DNA from: Streptomyces deccanensis
GTDB taxonomy: Bacteria; Actinomycetota; Actinomycetes; Streptomycetales; Streptomycetaceae
DNA length: 64,000 bases
NCBI RefSeq assembly: GCF_022385335.1
Contig: NZ_CP092431.1
Location: forward strand, 2,852,001-2,916,000
Direction of reading: 5' to 3'
Positions 6,172-15,705 of this stretch are shown here, one piece after another. The translations under genes and the position numbers were made by a program. Under the pieces are notes generated by a model. The model was not told the DNA's origin. It did not search any database and saw only the letters and a program-made list of their open reading frames with translations. Position 1 is the first letter of the stretch; every line of letters starts with the position of its first letter.

Positions 6172-6981
6172 GTGTCCACGACCCCCGAGCCCCCCGCCTC
6201 CTCCAGCCCGACGCTCGCCGACGGCCTGCGTTTCGCCTTCGGCACCCTGACCGTGCTGCCGGTGACCGTGCGCCGCTGGGACCGTGAGGCGGCGCGCGTC
6301 GGGATGCTCTGCGCGCCCGTCGCCGGGCTGGTCGTCGGCCTGGGCGCGGCCCTGCTCGGCGGTCTCCTGCTGCTCCTGGGCGCCGGGCCGCTGCTCGCCG
6401 CCGTGGCCTCCGTCGCCGTACCGGCCGCCCTCACCCGGGGCCTCCACCTGGACGGGCTCGCCGACACCGCCGACGGCCTGGGCAGCGGCAGGCCCGCCGA
6501 GGACGCCCTGCGGATCATGAAGCAGTCGGACATCGGGCCGTTCGGGGTCGTCACCCTCGTCCTCGTCCTGCTGGCCCAGGTCGCCGCGCTCACCGAGGCG
6601 TACGGCGAGTCCTGGGCGGTGGGCGCGCTCGCGGCGGCCGTCGGCGCGACCGCCGCCCGGCTGGCCCTGACCCTGGCCGCGCGGGCCGGCGTGCCCGCCG
6701 CCCGGCCGGAGGGGTTGGGGGCGGCGGTGGCCGGGGTCGTGCCGGTGCGCGGCGCGCTGCTGGTGGCCGCCCTGACCGGGTGCGCGGCGGCGGGTGTCGG
6801 GGCATTGTTCGGGCCGTTCGACATCGGTCGTACGGTCCTCGCGGTCGTCCTCGCCTGTGGGGCCGCCGAGCTGCTCCTGCGTCACTGCGTACGGCGGTTC
6901 GGGGGCGTCACCGGGGATGTGTTCGGCGGACTCGCGGAGACGGCGGCGACGGCGGCGCTGGTGGCGTTCACCTTCGGCTGA
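6172..6981 (+). CDS. cobS: Adenosylcobinamide-GDP ribazoletransferase
   Basis: CobS joins GDP-cobinamide to alpha-ribazole (phosphate), the last step of cobalamin synthesis, in the membrane. The 269-residue protein begins with a Ser/Pro tail and then LADGLRFAFGTLTVLPV. It has the family signature GLHLDGLADTADGLGSG near residue 90, followed by an acidic RPAEDALRIMKQSDIGPFGV segment that binds the metal-nucleotide, and several hydrophobic helices. It starts at GTG. The 15-residue GDVFGGLAETAATAA near the end is also typical. The Cob partners cobU and cobT lie 2-5 kb upstream; they are not in one operon. Confidence 0.93.
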   Translation: MSTTPEPPASSSPTLADGLRFAFGTLTVLPVTVRRWDREAARVGMLCAPVAGLVVGLGAALLGGLLLLLGAGPLLAAVASVAVPAALTRGLHLDGLADTADGLGSGRPAEDALRIMKQSDIGPFGVVTLVLVLLAQVAALTEAYGESWAVGALAAAVGATAARLALTLAARAGVPAARPEGLGAAVAGVVPVRGALLVAALTGCAAAGVGALFGPFDIGRTVLAVVLACGAAELLLRHCVRRFGGVTGDVFGGLAETAATAALVAFTFG

Positions 6982-6996: not shown

Positions 6997-7806
6997 TCAG
7001 CAGGCCTTCCGCCACACCCCCAGCTCCCACTTCTTCAGCAGGGAGCTGAGCTCCAGACGGCGGGCCTCGGGGCAGAAGTCGCCCGTCTCCATCTCGTACT
7101 CGACGTGGAAGACGGCCTTGCCGGCCTCGATGAACGGCGTGAGGTCCTCGCACTCCTCGTACTGGGCGCACTGTTCGTTGACCGCGAAGTCGAAGTCGTC
7201 GACGAGTTCGGGTATCTGGTCGAGGTCGTTCTTCAGGCCGACCGCCAGGCCTCGTTCGTGGGCGAGGCGGGCGACGAGACGGTTGTAGCGGAGCTGGTCG
7301 GCGGCCGTGAGGGGGAAGCCCGTCTTGTTGCGGTAGCCGTCCATGTTGTCGGGCTCGACCGCGTCGAAGCCCTTCTCCGCGCACATGTCGATGCGGGCGG
7401 CCATCAGGGGTTCGAGGACGTCGGTCGCGCGGATGTCGAGCCAGTACTCGCCCTCCCAGCCGTTGCTCTCGCCTATCACCGCCTTCGGGAAGTCGTCGGC
7501 GTCCGGGCGCCAGTCCTCCCAGGCGCCGGTGGAGAGGTAGCAGATGACCTTGCGGCCGTCGTCGTGCAGCTCGGCGACCGTGTCGGCCGACTGGTCGAAG
7601 CCGTCGATGTCGTAGACGGGGACGTCGACGGAGGTGTCCAGGCGCCCGCTGAGCTGCCACTGCCACTCGGTGCCCGGTTCCGGTCGCCAGCGGGCGGCCT
7701 CGGCCGTCCCGCGTCCGGTGCCCGGCTCGTCGTCGGGGGCGCCCGTGCACCCGGCCATCAGCAGAAGGAGGGGCAGCAGGGTGCTGCGGGCGCGGACGCG
7801 GTTCAT
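6997..7806 (-). CDS. GH114-like endo-alpha-1,4-polygalactosaminidase lipoprotein
   Basis: The 269-residue precursor has an N-terminal lipoprotein signal (LLPLLLLMAGC, Cys near residue 20), so it is probably anchored outside the cell. The mature part matches glycoside hydrolase family 114: WQWQLSG, VPVYDIDGFD, KVICYLSTGAWEDWRP, FDAVEPDNMDGY and VNEQCAQYEECE. GH114 enzymes cleave alpha-1,4-linked galactosamine polymers (fungal Ega3, hydrolase domain of bacterial PelA). It is the last gene of a minus-strand run and its ATG overlaps the preceding stop by 4 bp (ATGA). The likely role is trimming or release of the polymer made by the locus; substrate is inferred. Confidence 0.85.
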   Translation of the reverse strand: MNRVRARSTLLPLLLLMAGCTGAPDDEPGTGRGTAEAARWRPEPGTEWQWQLSGRLDTSVDVPVYDIDGFDQSADTVAELHDDGRKVICYLSTGAWEDWRPDADDFPKAVIGESNGWEGEYWLDIRATDVLEPLMAARIDMCAEKGFDAVEPDNMDGYRNKTGFPLTAADQLRYNRLVARLAHERGLAVGLKNDLDQIPELVDDFDFAVNEQCAQYEECEDLTPFIEAGKAVFHVEYEMETGDFCPEARRLELSSLLKKWELGVWRKAC

Positions 7807-8504
7807 CGTCGGGGCTCCAAGGCGTGCGGCAACGTACCCCAGGGATGATCCCCCACGCCGGGCACCGCGCAGTGCACGGAGGCGCCCCGGGCGCGGGCGA
7901 CACCCTCGACGTCGGTGCCCGGCGGCACTCCGTGCACCAGATGGCACACCCGCGCCCCGAGGCCCCCGCTGCCGCCGGGCCAGGGCTCGGGCGGCTGGTC
8001 CCGGTACGTCTCCCAGGTGCCCTCGAACGTGACGACGAGGTCGGCGATCCGGGCGTACGCGGGGTGGGGCGGGGTGCCGGGGTTGAGGGCGAGGGTGGCG
8101 GGGCCGGCGCCCCAGACGGCCGCGGCGAGCCGTCGGTAGTGGTCGAACGCGCCGTATTCGGCGGCCGCTTGGTCGAGGAAGACGCCGTCGGTGCCGTACC
8201 AGGCGTGGTGGCGGGTCAGCTCCCGTACGACGTCGGTGACGGGTCTGCGGCCGTAGTCGGTGTCGGCGTACCCGAGGAGCCGTACGCCGGCCGCCCGCAG
8301 CCGGCCCGCGACCCGGATGAACGCCGGGTCGGGGCCGTCGCCCGGCCCGTTCGCCGGGTTGAGGACGACGCCGTAGAGGCGGGGCGCGGCCTCGACGAGG
8401 GCGTCCCATGCGGCGGGGCGGTCGCGGGGGTGCTCGTAATAGGGGACCAGGAGGGACGGCGAGGAGAGCTCGGTCGCCCGGCGCGCTGTTCCGTATGCGG
8501 TCAT
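7803..8504 (-). CDS. Spherulin-4 / GH135-like glycoside hydrolase
   Basis: The 233-residue protein has the spherulation-specific family 4 pattern: LLVPYYEHP at the N-terminus, VVLNPANGPG, LLGYADTDYGRRP, YGTDGVFLDQAAAEYGAFDHY, LALNPGTPPHP and LVVTFEGTW. Family members such as fungal Sph3 (GH135) hydrolyse galactosaminogalactan and are needed for its production. No signal peptide is evident, so it may act in the cytoplasm or leave by another route, which is odd for a polymer hydrolase. The start is coupled to the upstream membrane-protein gene (4-bp overlap, 8501-8504) and its stop overlaps the GH114 gene. Confidence 0.82.
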   Translation of the reverse strand: MTAYGTARRATELSSPSLLVPYYEHPRDRPAAWDALVEAAPRLYGVVLNPANGPGDGPDPAFIRVAGRLRAAGVRLLGYADTDYGRRPVTDVVRELTRHHAWYGTDGVFLDQAAAEYGAFDHYRRLAAAVWGAGPATLALNPGTPPHPAYARIADLVVTFEGTWETYRDQPPEPWPGGSGGLGARVCHLVHGVPPGTDVEGVARARGASVHCAVPGVGDHPWGTLPHALEPRR

Positions 8505-10006
8505 CGGTGTGCCGTCGCCCTCCCCAACAGGCCGCAGACCAGGCCCGCCTGGAGGGCGGCGGCGACGCCGTACACGAGCAGGCCGATCCCGTGCGGGTCG
8601 CCCGGGTGGGTCACCAGGGCCAGGGTCTGGGCGGCGGCCGTGACGCAGCAGACGACGGCGGCGCCCAGGACCGCGCCGAAGGACTGGAGCAGCAGACCGG
8701 TCCAGAGCACCGCGCCCAGCAGGAGCAGGCCGGCGAGATGGACGCCGTCGAGCTCCGGGGCCCGCGGCCACAGCGCGGCGGTGGCGTGGGCCAGGATCAG
8801 CAGGGTGGCGAGGTAGCCGGCCAGGCACTGGACCAGGGTCACGGAGGTGGCCCGCCAGAAGGCGGCCGGTGTGCTGGTGGAGCGCAGTCCGGCGAGGCCT
8901 CCGCTGCGGAAGCGGTACAGCAGCCATTCGGCGGGGCCCATGCTGAGGGTGAGGGCCACGGCGGCGGGTGCCGCTGCCGTGCCGCCCCCGTGGGCGATGA
9001 CCTCCCCGAGCGTCGCGTACAGCACGAGCACACCGGTGCCGAGGCCGAAGACGGCGTACGGGAGGGAGGCGGCGAGTCGGGGCGCGGCCGGGCCCCGCTC
9101 CGGGACGCCGCCGGGCACGCCGAGGACGGTGACGGATCCGGGCCGGCGGCTCCGGGCGCCCGACTCCCGCAGGGCGGGCGCCACTTCGTGGACGGCGAGG
9201 AGCACGACCGCCACCAGGGAGGCGGTCAGCAGGGTGAGCCCGGACCAGTCGGGCACCGGCCGGGCCAGGGCGAACAGCGCGCCCGCCGTCATGGGCGTCA
9301 GACAGTGCAGCAGGGCCCGTTCGCGGCCGAGGACGAGCAGGACGGTCGCGGCGCCCAGGTAGCAGGCCTCGCCGGCGGCGAAGGCCACCGCGCCCGGGTC
9401 GCCGCCGCCGGCCGCCAGACAGGCGACCGTGGTGCACAGCAGGGCGCCCGCCGGCGCTCCGCGGGCCAGTGAGCGGCGGCACGCGTCGCGGTCGCCCAAC
9501 GCGAGCCAGGAGTAGGCCCGGTGGGCGAGACCCTGGTTCCACATCCAGCCGCACAGGGCGCCGGCCAGCAGCGGGACCGTGCCGGCGGGCAGGCCGGAGC
9601 CGTCGCGGGGGCCTGCCAGGAGGGGTGCGCCGAGGACGTAGGCGAGGCCGGGGAGGGCGAAGACGACGCCTCTGAGGAGGCAGCCGAGCAGGCCGATCCG
9701 CCAGGGGTCGGGCGCAGGCCCCGCCGGTTCGGGGTGGGCGCGCTCGACGCGTTCGTACAACTCCTCGGCGAGGGCGAAGGAGTTGCGGCAGCCGTAGCGG
9801 GCGCGGGTCCGGTCGTCGGAGATGCCGTCGGACTCCAGCAGGGCGGCGATCTCGTCCGGGTGGACGGCGGCGGCGATGAACTCCCGGTGTTGTTCGGCGA
9901 GTCGGTCGATGGGATCGGGTTCGGCCCGGCGGGGCCTGCGCGGGCGGGGCACGGCGGGGAGCGGGGCCGGCCGTGCGCCCGGGGGCGGGGTCGGGTGGCC
10001 GCTCAC
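8501..10006 (-). CDS. Polytopic membrane protein of the exopolysaccharide locus
   Basis: About 501 residues. A Pro/Arg-rich N-terminal ~40 residues is followed by a soluble helical part (DPIDRLAEQHREFIAAAV, then an ELYERVERAHPE segment). About twelve hydrophobic segments spread from residue ~110 to the end. I do not recognise a named family. Size and helix number fit a polysaccharide transporter of the PelG/MOP kind, and its place between a PelF-like glycosyltransferase and a hydrolase suggests export of the polymer, but homology to PelG is not shown. The GTG start at 10006 overlaps the glycosyltransferase stop by 4 bp. Confidence 0.8.
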   Translation of the reverse strand: MSGHPTPPPGARPAPLPAVPRPRRPRRAEPDPIDRLAEQHREFIAAAVHPDEIAALLESDGISDDRTRARYGCRNSFALAEELYERVERAHPEPAGPAPDPWRIGLLGCLLRGVVFALPGLAYVLGAPLLAGPRDGSGLPAGTVPLLAGALCGWMWNQGLAHRAYSWLALGDRDACRRSLARGAPAGALLCTTVACLAAGGGDPGAVAFAAGEACYLGAATVLLVLGRERALLHCLTPMTAGALFALARPVPDWSGLTLLTASLVAVVLLAVHEVAPALRESGARSRRPGSVTVLGVPGGVPERGPAAPRLAASLPYAVFGLGTGVLVLYATLGEVIAHGGGTAAAPAAVALTLSMGPAEWLLYRFRSGGLAGLRSTSTPAAFWRATSVTLVQCLAGYLATLLILAHATAALWPRAPELDGVHLAGLLLLGAVLWTGLLLQSFGAVLGAAVVCCVTAAAQTLALVTHPGDPHGIGLLVYGVAAALQAGLVCGLLGRATAHR

Positions 10007-11526
10007 CGGTCGGTTCCGTCCGTCGTGCCGGTCCGGTACCAAGGGTCGCGCAGTTCGGCGGTCCAGTCGGCGACCGTGGCCGGCGCGGGCTCGTACACGA
10101 TGTCGACCCGGCCCGCGAGTTCCTGGTAGATCATGCGGAAGGCGTCCACGGACCGGCGCAGGGTGAACCGGTCGATCACCCGCCGCCGTGCCGACTCCCC
10201 GAGGCCGCGGCGGCGTTCGTCGTCGCGCAGGAGGCCGAGCGCGGCGTCGGCCATCGCCTCCGGCTCGCGGGGCGGCACGACGATCCCGGTGTCGCCGACC
10301 GCCTCGCGGACCCCTCCGACATCGGTCGACACGGTCGTACGGCCGCAGGACATGGCCTCGATGAGGGAGTACGGGAAGCCCTCCGAGATCGAGGAGAGCA
10401 TCACGACGTGCCCGGCGGCGTAGGCCCGCCACACCTCGCTGATGCGGCCCTCGAAGGTGAGCCCGTCGGTGACGCCCAGTTCGGCGGCGAGCTTCTCCAG
10501 CTCGGTGCGGTACTCCTCGCCGCCCGGTGGCACGGGCCCGAACAGCCGGAGCCTGGTGCCGGGGAGCTCGGCGCGGACCATGGCGTAGGCGTGGAGCAGT
10601 GTCTCCAGGTCCTTGATGGGGTCGACGCGTCCGCACCAGGTGAGGGTGGGCACCTCGGGTTCGGGGCCGGCGTGCGGGAAGGCGGCCGGGTCGACGCCGT
10701 TGTAGACCGTGCGGATCCTGTCGGCGTCGGCGCCGCCCCGCTCCTCCCAGCGGCGGTTGTACCGGTTGCAGGGGGTGATGAGGTCGGCGGCGCGGTAGCC
10801 GAGCCTGGTCAGCTCGCGGTGGAAGCCGAGCATGAAGGCCTTCACGGGCCAGCGCTGGTCGGCGGTGCGGTGGCCGAGGTAGCGCTCGCGCAGATAGATG
10901 CCGTGCTCGGTGAGGAGGAACGGTACGCCGTCCAACTCGCGGGCGGCGAGCGCGGGCAGCGTGGCGAGGCCGCCGCTGACCGCGTGGGCCACACAGTCCT
11001 CGGGGATCCGGGCGCCGAGCGGCCGCAGGGAGTGTTCCAGCAGATCGGTCGCGGTGAGCGCGTCGTGGACCGTGGGGCGCGCGGCGGCCGTCGGCAGGTG
11101 CGGCATCGTCCAGATCCACATCAGCGAACGGAGCGCGGACTCGGTGCGCAGGGCCGCCGACAGGCGCCCGTCGCGGGCGAGTCGGGCCAACTCGTACAGG
11201 GCCTCCTCGAAGCCCTGGGGCGCGTCGGGGTCGAGGACGGAGAGCAGCAGTCGCTCGTAGGCGTCGGTGAAGCGGCGGCGGGCCGCGCCGTACGGGGCGC
11301 GGGCGCGGCCGGGGCGCGGGCCCCAGGTCGGTACGGAGGTGTGCCGGTACACGTTCGGCGGCAGGTCCCAGGTCACGGGTTCGCGGCCGGTTCCGGTGAG
11401 CGACACGAGGTGGAACTCGACGTCGGGCATGCCGTTGACTAGCTGGTCGCACCAGGTGCTGACCCCGCCGTGGACATGCGGGTAGGTGCCTTCGGTGAGC
11501 ATGGTGACATGACTGCCGGTGCGCAT
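10003..11526 (-). CDS. PelF-like family 4 glycosyltransferase
   Basis: The 507-residue protein begins VTMLTEGTYPHVHGGVSTW, the hallmark N-terminus of PelF, the cytoplasmic GT4 enzyme that builds Pel polysaccharide from UDP-activated amino sugars. Further PelF/GT4 signs are FLLTEHGIYLRERYLGHR in the middle, LTWCGRVDPIKDLETLLHA, and the donor-binding EX7E segment ISEGFPYSLIEAMSCG near residue 380, followed by VSTDVGGVREAV. No membrane segment is seen. Its stop overlaps the next gene by 4 bp. Upstream, a 120-bp gap containing a dispersed repeat separates it from the deacetylase gene. Sugar specificity (GalNAc or other) is inferred from the neighbours. Confidence 0.88.
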   Translation of the reverse strand: MRTGSHVTMLTEGTYPHVHGGVSTWCDQLVNGMPDVEFHLVSLTGTGREPVTWDLPPNVYRHTSVPTWGPRPGRARAPYGAARRRFTDAYERLLLSVLDPDAPQGFEEALYELARLARDGRLSAALRTESALRSLMWIWTMPHLPTAAARPTVHDALTATDLLEHSLRPLGARIPEDCVAHAVSGGLATLPALAARELDGVPFLLTEHGIYLRERYLGHRTADQRWPVKAFMLGFHRELTRLGYRAADLITPCNRYNRRWEERGGADADRIRTVYNGVDPAAFPHAGPEPEVPTLTWCGRVDPIKDLETLLHAYAMVRAELPGTRLRLFGPVPPGGEEYRTELEKLAAELGVTDGLTFEGRISEVWRAYAAGHVVMLSSISEGFPYSLIEAMSCGRTTVSTDVGGVREAVGDTGIVVPPREPEAMADAALGLLRDDERRRGLGESARRRVIDRFTLRRSVDAFRMIYQELAGRVDIVYEPAPATVADWTAELRDPWYRTGTTDGTDR

Positions 11527-11569
11527 GGCTGCGCCGCTCCCCCCTGTTGCTGTTACGCGGATGATGTGC

Positions 11570-11645
11570 GGGGAACTGCGGGCCCGGACGCCGACCGCGG
11601 GTCGGTGGGGGTTGATCGCACAGTTCCCCGCGCCCCTTGGGGGGC
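11570..11645. repeat. Dispersed modular inverted repeat, copy 3 (short)
   Basis: This compact copy has a GGGGAACTGCG fragment, then a variant core CGCACAGTTCCCCGCGCCCCT (11616-11636). It lies immediately after the stop of the deacetylase gene and before the PelF-like gene, so it may form a hairpin inside or at the end of the transcript. Confidence 0.7.
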
Positions 11646-11646
11646 T

Positions 11647-13680
11647 CTACGGCAACTTGAGCTTTACGGCTGACTGGAGTGCCGCCGGCGTGGTCCAGGC
11701 CGAGCGGGCTCCCGCGTACGGGGTGCCGAACGTGGCGGTCCCGAGCGGGAGTTGCGTGACGGTCCCCTTCGGTGCCGTCACCGGGATCTCGACCCCCGAC
11801 GGCGCCTTCACCGTCACCGCCGTGCCGATGCGGTACGCCGTGACCGTGCCGTTCGCGATGGCGGTCTGCCAGGCGGCCCGGCGCTTCAGCTCGGTGCCGA
11901 CCGCGCCGTGCCGGGGGTTCTCCAGCGGGGTGTCGGAGGCGAAGAGCGCCCGGTACTCGGCGAGCACCTGGTCCAGGACCGGGTAGAGCAGCCGCTCCTC
12001 GGCCAGGTTGGACTGGTGCGCGTAGTGCGGTCGCGGGTCGTTGCCGACGGCGTGCAGCAGGGCCGTACGGACCTCCTGCGGGACGATGTGCGTCGTGTAC
12101 CCGGTGGCGGGGTCGAGGGGGGCGGGCAGGCAGGTGGAGGTCGCGTTGTTCTCGCAGACGCCGCTGCCGCCGTCGGCCGCCGAGGTGTAGACCCAGTTGT
12201 ACTCGTCGACCATCTCCGCGGCGGTGCCCACGTTGTAGTAGACGTTCATCGGGTGGCGCGGCACGGTCAGCGCGGCGCCCACCGGACGCTGGGCCGGTTC
12301 GCGGGAGTTGTCGGAGGCGATCCATTTGACAGCGTTGTCGGCGAGGGCGCCCGCGAGGTTCGGGTTGTCGTCCGGCTGCTGCGGCAGCGTTTTCAGGCCC
12401 GAGTGCTCGCCCGTCACCAGTTCGTCGCGCCGCACGGGCAGTCCGCGCGCGACCGCCCAGGCGTGGTTGTCGCGGATCTGCGCGGCGATGTCGGCGCGGC
12501 TCAGATAGCGGGTGGTGCCGTCGGCGTTCTTCGCGCAGCTCCACGGGACGGTCGAGGTGTCCTGGAGGCAGCCGAGGTACTGGTGGGTGTAGGTGTGGTT
12601 GATCCAGCGGAACGCGTTCCGGTCGGCGACCAGCCGGTCGGCGAGGGCGTCCGTGCCGCCGTTCGCCTCCTTCCACTCCTCGCCGCTGCCGCCGTTGTAG
12701 ACCATGTCGAGGGTGAGGCCGCTGGACCGCTGCCACTGCTCGGCGTACTCGGCGTCGGCGGCGGTCATCCGGATCGGCTCGGTCTCCGTGCCCTGCCCGC
12801 CGCCGCAGTTGAAGCTGCCGGGCGTGCAGTTGTTCTCGGTGTCCCAGCGGCTGTCGGGCGCGAAGACGTCGTCGATGTGGATGCCGAAGTAGTTCCGGTT
12901 CCGGCCGAGGTGCACGCCGTCCGTCAGCCACTCGACGATGCCCCGGGCCAGCACCCGGAACTGCCGCTGGTGCTGGTTGTGGGCGAAGGTGACGACCAGT
13001 TCGCGGCGCCCGTCGTGGGCGTACTCCCCGACCAGGCTGCCCCGGCCGCTGCCGCCGGGCACCGGGAGGTCGACATAACTGGTGTAGCCGGGGCGGGGCC
13101 GGGCGACGAAGCCGTAACTCTCCTGCGTGGAGGCGGAGTTGTCCTCGAAGGTGAACTGCCCGTCGAGATAGCCGAAGCGGCCCGCCCGGCCGGCGTCGGT
13201 CACCGTGGCCTCCCGGCCGTCGAGGGAGCCGGCCCAGCCGCCCTCGCTGGTGTAGTCGAGGCCGACCCCGGGGTGCGCCCAGGTGTAGGCGTCGACCTGC
13301 GGGATCCCGTACGTCCGCTCGTAGGTCTCCAGCGCGCTCTGCTCGGCCGAACCCGGGCCGAACGGGGCCTCGTTGGGCAGGACCACGCCCTGGAACCTGG
13401 CGCGCGGGGTGCCGCCGACCGTGTCGCTCAGGAAGGCCGCGTCGATGGTCGGGCGGTTCGCGTCGCCGAGGTTCACGCGGGTGTACGGGACGCCGGTGCT
13501 CTTCAGCTCCGCGACGATGGCCTGGACGGGGCTGTCGCCGTTGTCCACCACCAGCACCCGCAGGTCGACGCGCGGTACGACGGCGGCCGACGCTCCCGGT
13601 ATGCCCAGGCCCGCCACCAGCAGACTCGTCGTCGCCACGACTGCGGCGGCGCTCCTCCATCCGGGCACGCTGTACGGCAT
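11647..13680 (-). CDS. Secreted Agd3-like (CE18-type) polysaccharide deacetylase
   Basis: The 677-residue protein has an N-terminal signal peptide (VVATTSLLVAGLGIPGASA). A ~200-residue alpha/beta domain follows (DLRVLVVDNGDSPVQAIVAE), placed like the carbohydrate-binding domain of fungal Agd3. A deacetylase domain then carries a metal-type FGIHIDDVFAPDSRW near residue 265 and an H-x3-H motif in INHTYTHQYLGC near 360. A Cys-rich patch (CTPGSFNCGGG, CENNATSTC) suggests an oxidised, extracellular protein. Agd3/PelA-type enzymes remove acetyl groups from GalNAc polymers, making them cationic and adhesive. The start is chosen at the ATG before the signal peptide. It heads the minus-strand cluster. 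Confidence 0.82.
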   Translation of the reverse strand: MPYSVPGWRSAAAVVATTSLLVAGLGIPGASAAVVPRVDLRVLVVDNGDSPVQAIVAELKSTGVPYTRVNLGDANRPTIDAAFLSDTVGGTPRARFQGVVLPNEAPFGPGSAEQSALETYERTYGIPQVDAYTWAHPGVGLDYTSEGGWAGSLDGREATVTDAGRAGRFGYLDGQFTFEDNSASTQESYGFVARPRPGYTSYVDLPVPGGSGRGSLVGEYAHDGRRELVVTFAHNQHQRQFRVLARGIVEWLTDGVHLGRNRNYFGIHIDDVFAPDSRWDTENNCTPGSFNCGGGQGTETEPIRMTAADAEYAEQWQRSSGLTLDMVYNGGSGEEWKEANGGTDALADRLVADRNAFRWINHTYTHQYLGCLQDTSTVPWSCAKNADGTTRYLSRADIAAQIRDNHAWAVARGLPVRRDELVTGEHSGLKTLPQQPDDNPNLAGALADNAVKWIASDNSREPAQRPVGAALTVPRHPMNVYYNVGTAAEMVDEYNWVYTSAADGGSGVCENNATSTCLPAPLDPATGYTTHIVPQEVRTALLHAVGNDPRPHYAHQSNLAEERLLYPVLDQVLAEYRALFASDTPLENPRHGAVGTELKRRAAWQTAIANGTVTAYRIGTAVTVKAPSGVEIPVTAPKGTVTQLPLGTATFGTPYAGARSAWTTPAALQSAVKLKLP

Positions 13681-14166
13681 GTTCGCCCCTTCCCCCGAGA
13701 AGATCCCCCGGCGGCGACTGAACGGCCGCACCGAGGGGAATCTGTGGAAATGATGCAAGCCGATGAGCTGATCACTCACCGGGCCGGACGAGTGTCACCC
13801 AGGTCAGGGCACATGTGGGCAGGAAAATGACCATGAAGCCACATAGGGGTGAATGCCCGCAGGGGTGAGCGAAATCGGCGGCGGGACGCTACGCGCGGAG
13901 ACCGCCGACGCTACGCGCGAAGACGATGGACCCGTGAGCCCGGAGCCGCGATAAGGGATCCCCCTATGCCTCAGCCATGGGGATCTCCCTGCACGTCCGG
14001 GGCGGAAAGTCGGGGAGGCTGGTCGCAGCGGACGCCATGCGGACGGCGCGGCGCAACCGGCCGATACTCCAGGTCCGATGGGCCGAACAAGGGCCTAGGC
14101 TCGTTCTCGGCACGTCGACCCACCCGTTCGGCCACGAAACTCAATCGGAAGCGAGATTTCACCACC
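13681..14166. other. 486-bp divergent intergenic region with a 22-bp direct repeat
   Basis: This region separates the deacetylase gene (minus) from pepA (plus), so promoters for both should lie here. GACGCTACGCGCG occurs twice, at 13885-13897 and 13907-13919, a 22-bp period that would put both copies on one face of the helix. The segment AGGGGTGAATGCCCGCAGGG next to it is only weakly riboswitch-like. No gene is seen. Confidence 0.45.

Positions 14167-15705
<1,539 letters not shown>

Follow-up and report, generated by a model that had tools for sequence, protein, structure and literature searches.

A putative Pel/galactosaminogalactan-like exopolysaccharide locus and its relatives in Streptomyces deccanensis

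Gene content of locus A

The DNA analysed here, referred to as the window, is a stretch of 64 000 nucleotides from Streptomyces deccanensis (contig NZ_CP092431.1, positions 2 852 001–2 916 000). The host genome is 10.1 Mb in a single contig, and the closest relatives of the window proteins are from Streptomyces. Five minus-strand genes between positions 6997 and 13680 of the window, here termed locus A, form a putative Pel/galactosaminogalactan-like exopolysaccharide locus. The open reading frames of the window confirm the order proposed in an initial annotation of this DNA: a CE18-like deacetylase, a PelF-type synthase, a membrane protein, a GH135 protein and a GH114 protein. The CE18 gene lies upstream, separated from the PelF gene by a gap of 120 bp, and the four genes from PelF to GH114 are linked by the 4 bp start/stop overlaps that had been claimed for them, all three of which were located (10003/10006, 8501/8504 and 7803/7806).

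The PelF synthase and the membrane protein

The candidate synthase is a PelF-type GT4 glycosyltransferase of 507 amino acids (10003..11526, minus strand). It matched the DUF3492 domain of PelF (PF11997) with an E-value of 5.3e-56, and the NCBIfam PelF equivalog model NF038011 with 164.5 bits, above the cut-off of 100. The glutamates of the EX7E motif (E382 and E390) and the pair R300/K305, which we take to be catalytic residues, were kept in 80/80 sequences.

The membrane protein (8501..10006, minus strand) is 501 amino acids in length from a GTG start. It had been described as a protein of about 12 helices, and 12 membrane helices were predicted. It has a conserved N-terminal cytosolic helical domain, spanning approximately residues 32–86, and its predicted structure adopts the 12-helix MOP (MATE/Wzx-like) fold; it is probably a polymer exporter. 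A Pfam scan of 36 relatives of the membrane protein yielded only single-member matches with E-values of 0.015 or worse, and comparison of the membrane-protein profile with the PDB gave no useful match.

A PelG-like polymer exporter is expected to have a 12-helix MOP fold. The predicted fold, the match of PelF to its equivalog model and the presence of deacetylase and hydrolase functions would accordingly also suit a true Gram-positive pel operon (pelDEADAFG), in which PelG is divergent and PelD is lost or distant. We regard this as very unlikely, as the reading is already weakened by several results. No PelG homology of the membrane protein was detected, as hhalign of its 18-sequence family with six PelGs gave a probability of 0.1, the PelG profile being shallow; the two may have a remote common origin, and the kinship in fold is kept. 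The PelG model PF16933 had no match in the S. deccanensis genome and did give a match in its control. PelG was found in 0/155 loci carrying the membrane protein and in six other loci, these loci having been chosen for the membrane protein or CE18 and the PelG model having been made from the six PelG loci themselves. A PelF tree was constructed by a quick search, and has some weak deep forks and flagged long branches (G281, Cetobacterium and Thermus); in this tree a branch with a support of 100 parts the PelFs of the loci from the six PelG-linked PelFs and a stray PelF from G281. The PelD model PF16963 also had no match in the genome, but the control genomes were silent too and this result is weak. 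The deacetylase is of family CE18, as opposed to the CE26 given for PelADA in the available text of PMC13254593. Locus A would work like Pel or galactosaminogalactan (GAG) systems, yet it is not a pel operon, because it has a transporter of predicted MOP fold with a conserved N-terminal cytosolic domain and no detectable sequence relation to PelG.

The CE18 deacetylase

The first gene encodes a putative secreted polysaccharide de-N-acetylase of the CE18 (Agd3-like) type, 677 amino acids in length (11647..13680, minus strand). When the window protein alone was compared with the PDB using phmmer no match was found; the family profile alone succeeded, matching Agd3 (6nwz) with an E-value of 1.9e-12. 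Within this match only the N-terminal stretch 43–284 was significant by itself, and the deacetylase half had an independent E-value of 2.9. The Pfam model Agd3_CE was matched at an E-value of 0.01 or better by 16 of 25 CE18 family members, with relatives from G095, Deinococcus ficus and Thermus above its cut-off. The predicted structure of the window protein (pLDDT 86.7) placed Agd3 6nwz at rank 1 in the PDB by Foldseek (E-value 1.3e-26, TM-scores 0.69/0.70, root-mean-square deviation 5.4 across 766 alignment columns), and the model has the three-domain architecture and fold of Agd3. The annotation of an Agd3-like deacetylase thus stands on both the family profile and the structural comparison.

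The catalytic motifs CM1–CM4 (DD, HxxxH, R and H) are all present. The residues D377, D378, H510, H514, R613 and H668 of Agd3, as given in the available text of PMC7229062, correspond to D270/D271, H362/H366, R475 and H555 in the window protein. These were kept in 88/88 CE18 relatives, with the exception of R475, which was kept in 86/88.

After Agd3, the structural matches of CE18 that ranked next were human heparan sulfate N-deacetylase/N-sulfotransferase 1 (NDST; E-value 1.2e-17), which was matched by the family profile with an E-value of 0.005; these matches are hints of a CE18–NDST kinship. One member of the CE18 alignment has fibronectin III and another (L088) has He_PIG repeats (L087, L088). 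A second, weaker GH135 match was also seen in L087.

The GH135 and GH114 hydrolases

The GH135 gene (7803..8504, minus strand) encodes a 233 amino acid homologue of the spherulin-4-type endo-alpha-1,4-N-acetylgalactosaminidases, apparently without a signal peptide. It matched Spherulin4/GH135 (PF12138) with an E-value of 2e-32 and Sph3 (5d6t) with an E-value of 1.8e-17, and the presumed catalytic residues D111 and E161 were kept in 69/69 sequences. The GH114 gene (6997..7806, minus strand) encodes a predicted lipoprotein of 269 amino acids, an endo-alpha-1,4-galactosaminidase of the Ega3 type. Its family assignment is unambiguous (PF03537, E-value 5.2e-93) and it is strikingly near to fungal Ega3 (6ojb, 1.2e-59); further PDB matches were fungal 9ep6 (5.8e-28) and 9ep5 (9.3e-5). 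The presumed catalytic D153 was present in 62/62 sequences and E211 in 60/62, the other two being gaps. The families first proposed for GH135, GH114 and PelF are those matched by PF12138, PF03537, PF11997 and NF038011, and with the CE18 match all three processing enzymes were recovered by profile.

Export was assessed by a crude hydropathy window with heuristic starts, rather than SignalP. A signal-like hydrophobic start was found in 102/139 CE18 and 82/104 GH114 proteins, the strict threshold therefore failing 37/139 and 22/104, respectively. By the same test a signal-like stretch was absent in 118/120 GH135 proteins (a looser threshold passes 13/120), and the hydrophobic stretch in the other two resembles the first strand of the domain itself. 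The GH135 frame in the window is open upstream to 9554, and none of the eight possible starts, at 8504 or further upstream, produced a signal-like stretch (best hydropathy 0.22). As all eight starts fail, a misplaced start site does not explain why the signal is missing, and GH135 is probably cytosolic because it apparently has no signal peptide.

A further GH114 domain was observed elsewhere in the genome, at the C-terminus of a 647 amino acid protein with an N-terminal Ser/Thr protein kinase (L076:6640-8583, C1 ~5.4976–5.4996 Mb; PF00069 2.4e-39, PF03537 1.9e-47). This fusion might act as a receptor kinase for a galactosamine polymer, sensing its presence.

Conservation of the gene set

Two samples of loci were read. 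These share some genomes and the counts are kept apart, except in the signal test, which pools both. The hidden Markov models used to scan loci derive in part from loci of this kind, and L168 and L090, which are apparently one contig, are both included in the residue counts. The first sample was the best 80 of 502 relatives retrieved with CE18 as the query, and includes Kocuria, Dermacoccus, Propioniciclava, Kutzneria, Actinomadura, Lentzea, Dactylosporangium and Kitasatospora; because the best CE18 relatives were chosen, it favours Actinobacteria and says little on solitary CE18 genes. Excluding 20 loci without a full flank left 60 well-flanked loci. CE18, PelF and the membrane protein were adjacent, in that order, in 59 of these; GH135 was present in 56, GH114 in 52 and PelG in none.

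The second sample consisted of 68 Streptomyces loci picked by a membrane-protein match, of which 40 resemble locus A (type A) and 28 resemble a second locus of the same genome, locus B (type B). Type A loci carried CE18 in 37 cases, PelF in 39, GH135 in 38 and GH114 in 29, and the three without CE18 are truncated by contig ends; the corresponding numbers for type B were 27, 28, 27 and 19. Type A was found in at least 35/121 genomes, the window's own counted, and type B in at least 25/121. Fragments mostly at contig edges (G388, G318:C108 and G407) and several B-like matches (e.g. G133, G143, G243, G269 and G293) were left out of the full reading. The window genes that flank locus A, both on the plus strand and outside the system, serve as synteny anchors: one at 6172..6981 and one at 13849..15705, which we take from their sequences to be cobS-like and leucyl aminopeptidase-like (pepA), respectively. 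One or other of these was beside 39/40 type A loci in Streptomyces and 0/28 of type B.

Versions of the gene set are also present on Deinococcus and Thermus plasmids, and a Kocuria rosea plasmid has the exact five-gene order. The K. rosea cluster (L095:4511-13579) lies between two transposase genes of identical protein accession, like a composite transposon. The genes therefore occur together, in a kept order, in other genomes, and a chance arrangement is excluded because of this conservation.

These counts bear on an alternative in which the locus degrades or remodels the galactosaminogalactan or Pel of other organisms, in an interaction between fungus and bacterium, and in which PelF and the membrane protein belong to the pathway of a different glycan. 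It would be consistent with the apparent export of GH114 and CE18 and with the nearness of GH114 to Ega3. Against this, GH135 is unlikely to reach a foreign polymer because it is without a signal-like stretch, PelF and the membrane protein accompany CE18 almost without exception, and 8/60 well-flanked and 20/68 Streptomyces loci have no GH114, which is the plainest of the degrading enzymes. We consider this alternative most improbable.

Loci B and C

Locus B (L074, C1 ~1.004–1.014 Mb) has the order CE18-PelF-TM-LegB-NTase-NADox-GH135-GH114, in which TM is the membrane protein and NTase a nucleotidyltransferase. The run TM-LegB-NTase-NADox was found in 28/28 sampled Streptomyces B loci. The LegB-like protein scored 451.6 bits with the LegB 4,6-dehydratase model, just below the cut-off of 475, and reads TSTSETYG, a T-x-E arrangement that we take to indicate 4,6-dehydratases rather than 4-epimerases. 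On sequence grounds the LegB-like protein, the nucleotidyltransferase and an RmlD/epimerase-like reductase look like a route to a nucleoside diphosphate (NDP)-6-deoxy-amino sugar, and a dedicated 6-deoxy amino sugar is probable for locus B. A divergent version (L089, genome G095) has a nucleotide sugar dehydrogenase (TIGR03026, 7e-87) and an extra epimerase after the nucleotidyltransferase, suggesting a uronic or other modified sugar.

Type A is independent of these sugar genes, as 13 of 22 A-bearing genomes without locus B had no LegB relative at an E-value of 1e-60 or better; the other nine had one elsewhere, with 50–53% identity. Only 2/26 genomes, both of which carry locus B, had a close nucleotidyltransferase (86% or more). 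In the PelF tree type A is nested among type B and Deinococcus relatives with sugar genes lie further out, an arrangement that fits a loss of the sugar genes en route to type A. In a separate PelF lineage (Kocuria, Dermacoccus, Propioniciclava and Dactylosporangium) there are also sets that lack the sugar genes, and so these genes appear to have been lost or gained more than once.

Locus C (L075, ~6.80 Mb) consists of PelF-TM-epimerase-GH135 adjoining a moeZ-like gene, without CE18 or GH114. It was present in all 33 Streptomyces regions read (L075, L161–L165 and L254–L280, from every one of the 28 Streptomyces genomes in the class sample and from five in the genus sample), always beside moeZ, and included GH135 in 30/33. 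Locus C looks like a core trait of Streptomyces.

The paralogous kits A and B may make two chemically different Pel/GAG-like polymers, with C as a third kit. In this scheme, which is tentative and on balance doubtful, A would use N-acetylgalactosamine/galactosamine (GalNAc/GalN) from a housekeeping uridine diphosphate (UDP) sugar, and B an NDP-6-deoxy-amino sugar, either N-acetylfucosamine (FucNAc)-type 6-deoxy-GalNAc or N-acetylquinovosamine (QuiNAc), made by its own nucleotidyltransferase, 4,6-dehydratase and 4-ketoreductase. In each of the kits PelF would be docked by a novel N-terminal domain on a MOP exporter that replaces PelD, PelE and PelG and control by cyclic di-GMP (c-di-GMP), and GH135 would trim inside the cell.

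Proposed function of locus A

What computation shows of the locus is the family of each enzyme, the conservation of the catalytic residues, the folds predicted for the proteins, the order of the genes and the lack of a signal-like stretch in GH135. It appears likely, from profiles and models, that locus A is a synthase-dependent Pel/galactosaminogalactan-like exopolysaccharide locus which makes, exports, trims and partly de-N-acetylates an alpha-1,4-GalNAc/GalN polymer. Profiles, predicted structure and synteny agree in supporting the initial proposal of a galactosamine-type polymer that is made, trimmed and deacetylated by fungal-type processing enzymes combined with a PelF-type synthase. That annotation did not recognise that GH135 is likely to be cytosolic, that the transporter has a predicted MOP fold or that the genome carries two paralogous loci.

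The polymer chemistry, the docking of PelF, the direction of transport and a role in hyphal adhesion or pelleting are what we infer. Cytosolic PelF would polymerise GalNAc from UDP-GalNAc made by housekeeping 4-epimerases; three GalE-type genes above the curated cut-off lie elsewhere in the genome. The membrane protein may offer its N-terminal domain as a dock for PelF, and its MOP-fold bundle would move the chain across the membrane in place of the PelD/PelE/PelG set. GH135 would cut the acetylated chain inside the cell, for length control or to clear stalled polymer. Outside, secreted CE18 would strip N-acetyl groups to leave a cationic, sticky polymer, and the membrane-anchored GH114 lipoprotein would cut deacetylated stretches. 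A role in pellet formation or attachment is reasonable by analogy with the GAG of Aspergillus oryzae.

Several points weigh against this interpretation. The supply of UDP-GalNAc by one GalE-type gene is assumed. Foldseek TM-scores for the membrane protein were about 0.37–0.46 in the top rows and the MOP assignment is moderate; moreover, the MOP fold is no proof of polymer export because drug exporters and lipid-sugar flippases have the same fold. The window CE18 matched Agd3_CE (PF25115) with an E-value of 6.8e-4 and 19.2 bits, below the 27.6 cut-off, a weak sequence call to which the family-profile match in the PDB and the predicted structure give firm support. The conserved M666 of Agd3 (available text of PMC7229062) is a tyrosine in the window protein. 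GH114 is not essential, as it is missing from 11/40 type A and 9/28 type B Streptomyces loci, and in one locus (L211) CE18 stands by itself, the remaining genes of the set being absent across 19.9 kb.

The flippase fold would also suit a wall glycopolymer or glycolipid pathway, in which PelF and the MOP protein synthesise and flip, respectively, a short lipid-linked glycan and no free exopolysaccharide is formed. Reports cited in the available text of PMC7229062 describe galactosamine as present in the walls of Streptomyces, and S. griseus as having an endogalactosaminidase. The endo-acting hydrolase families, together with the preference of Agd3 for long chains described in the same text, point instead to a long polymer, and neither an initiating phosphoglycosyltransferase nor a polymerase is among the five genes. 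The wall pathway is considered very unlikely.

If locus A does produce an exported GalNAc/GalN polymer, a cationic GalN polymer may underlie the aggregation of hyphae in this industrially central genus, and might be attacked by enzymes that can dissolve the biofilms of fungi and Pseudomonas. A class of PelF exporter would then exist that is possibly independent of c-di-GMP. The paired A and B loci permit a direct test of monomer switching within one synthase family.

Comparison with known systems

Searches of the open-licence literature in PubMed Central (PMC) found no work on this Streptomyces locus and no genetic system for a galactosamine polymer tested in Streptomyces. Locus A shares with the Aspergillus GAG cluster (Uge3, Gtb3, Sph3, Ega3 and Agd3) the clustering of CE18, GH114 and GH135 and the combination of synthesis, trimming and partial deacetylation. 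The Aspergillus cluster has the integral-membrane synthase Gtb3 and the epimerase Uge3, whereas locus A has a separate PelF and MOP-fold protein and no epimerase among its five genes. The GH135 of locus A is without a signal-like stretch, which may be a further difference. The Gram-positive pelDEADAFG operon has, according to the available text of Whitfield et al. (2020; PMC7112168), a PelF synthase, a deacetylase and no outer-membrane parts, as does locus A. The two differ in that no PelG and, in a search with silent controls, no PelD was found, CE18 replaces PelADA, and GH135 and GH114 are additional. The membrane protein resembles the MOP superfamily (MATE, WzxE and MurJ) in its predicted 12-helix fold and differs in its extra conserved N-terminal cytosolic domain, with 5 to 14% identity among the matches listed.

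Locus A is of the same kind as the bacterial operons with agd3 described by Bamford et al. (2020; PMC7229062). The available text gives the same outline of a cytoplasmic glycosyltransferase, a multi-spanning membrane protein and GH114, with spherulin-4 also in some Actinobacteria agd3 operons, and the headline combination of enzymes has thus already been published in outline. That text is silent on the division into A, B and C and on the genes for sugar nucleotides, as well as on the MOP fold, N-terminal domain and absent signal peptide. What is new here is the sorting into loci A, B and C, the distinct, probable exporter of predicted MOP fold and its conserved N-terminal domain, a GH135 that apparently has no signal peptide and the dedicated sugar-nucleotide genes of locus B.

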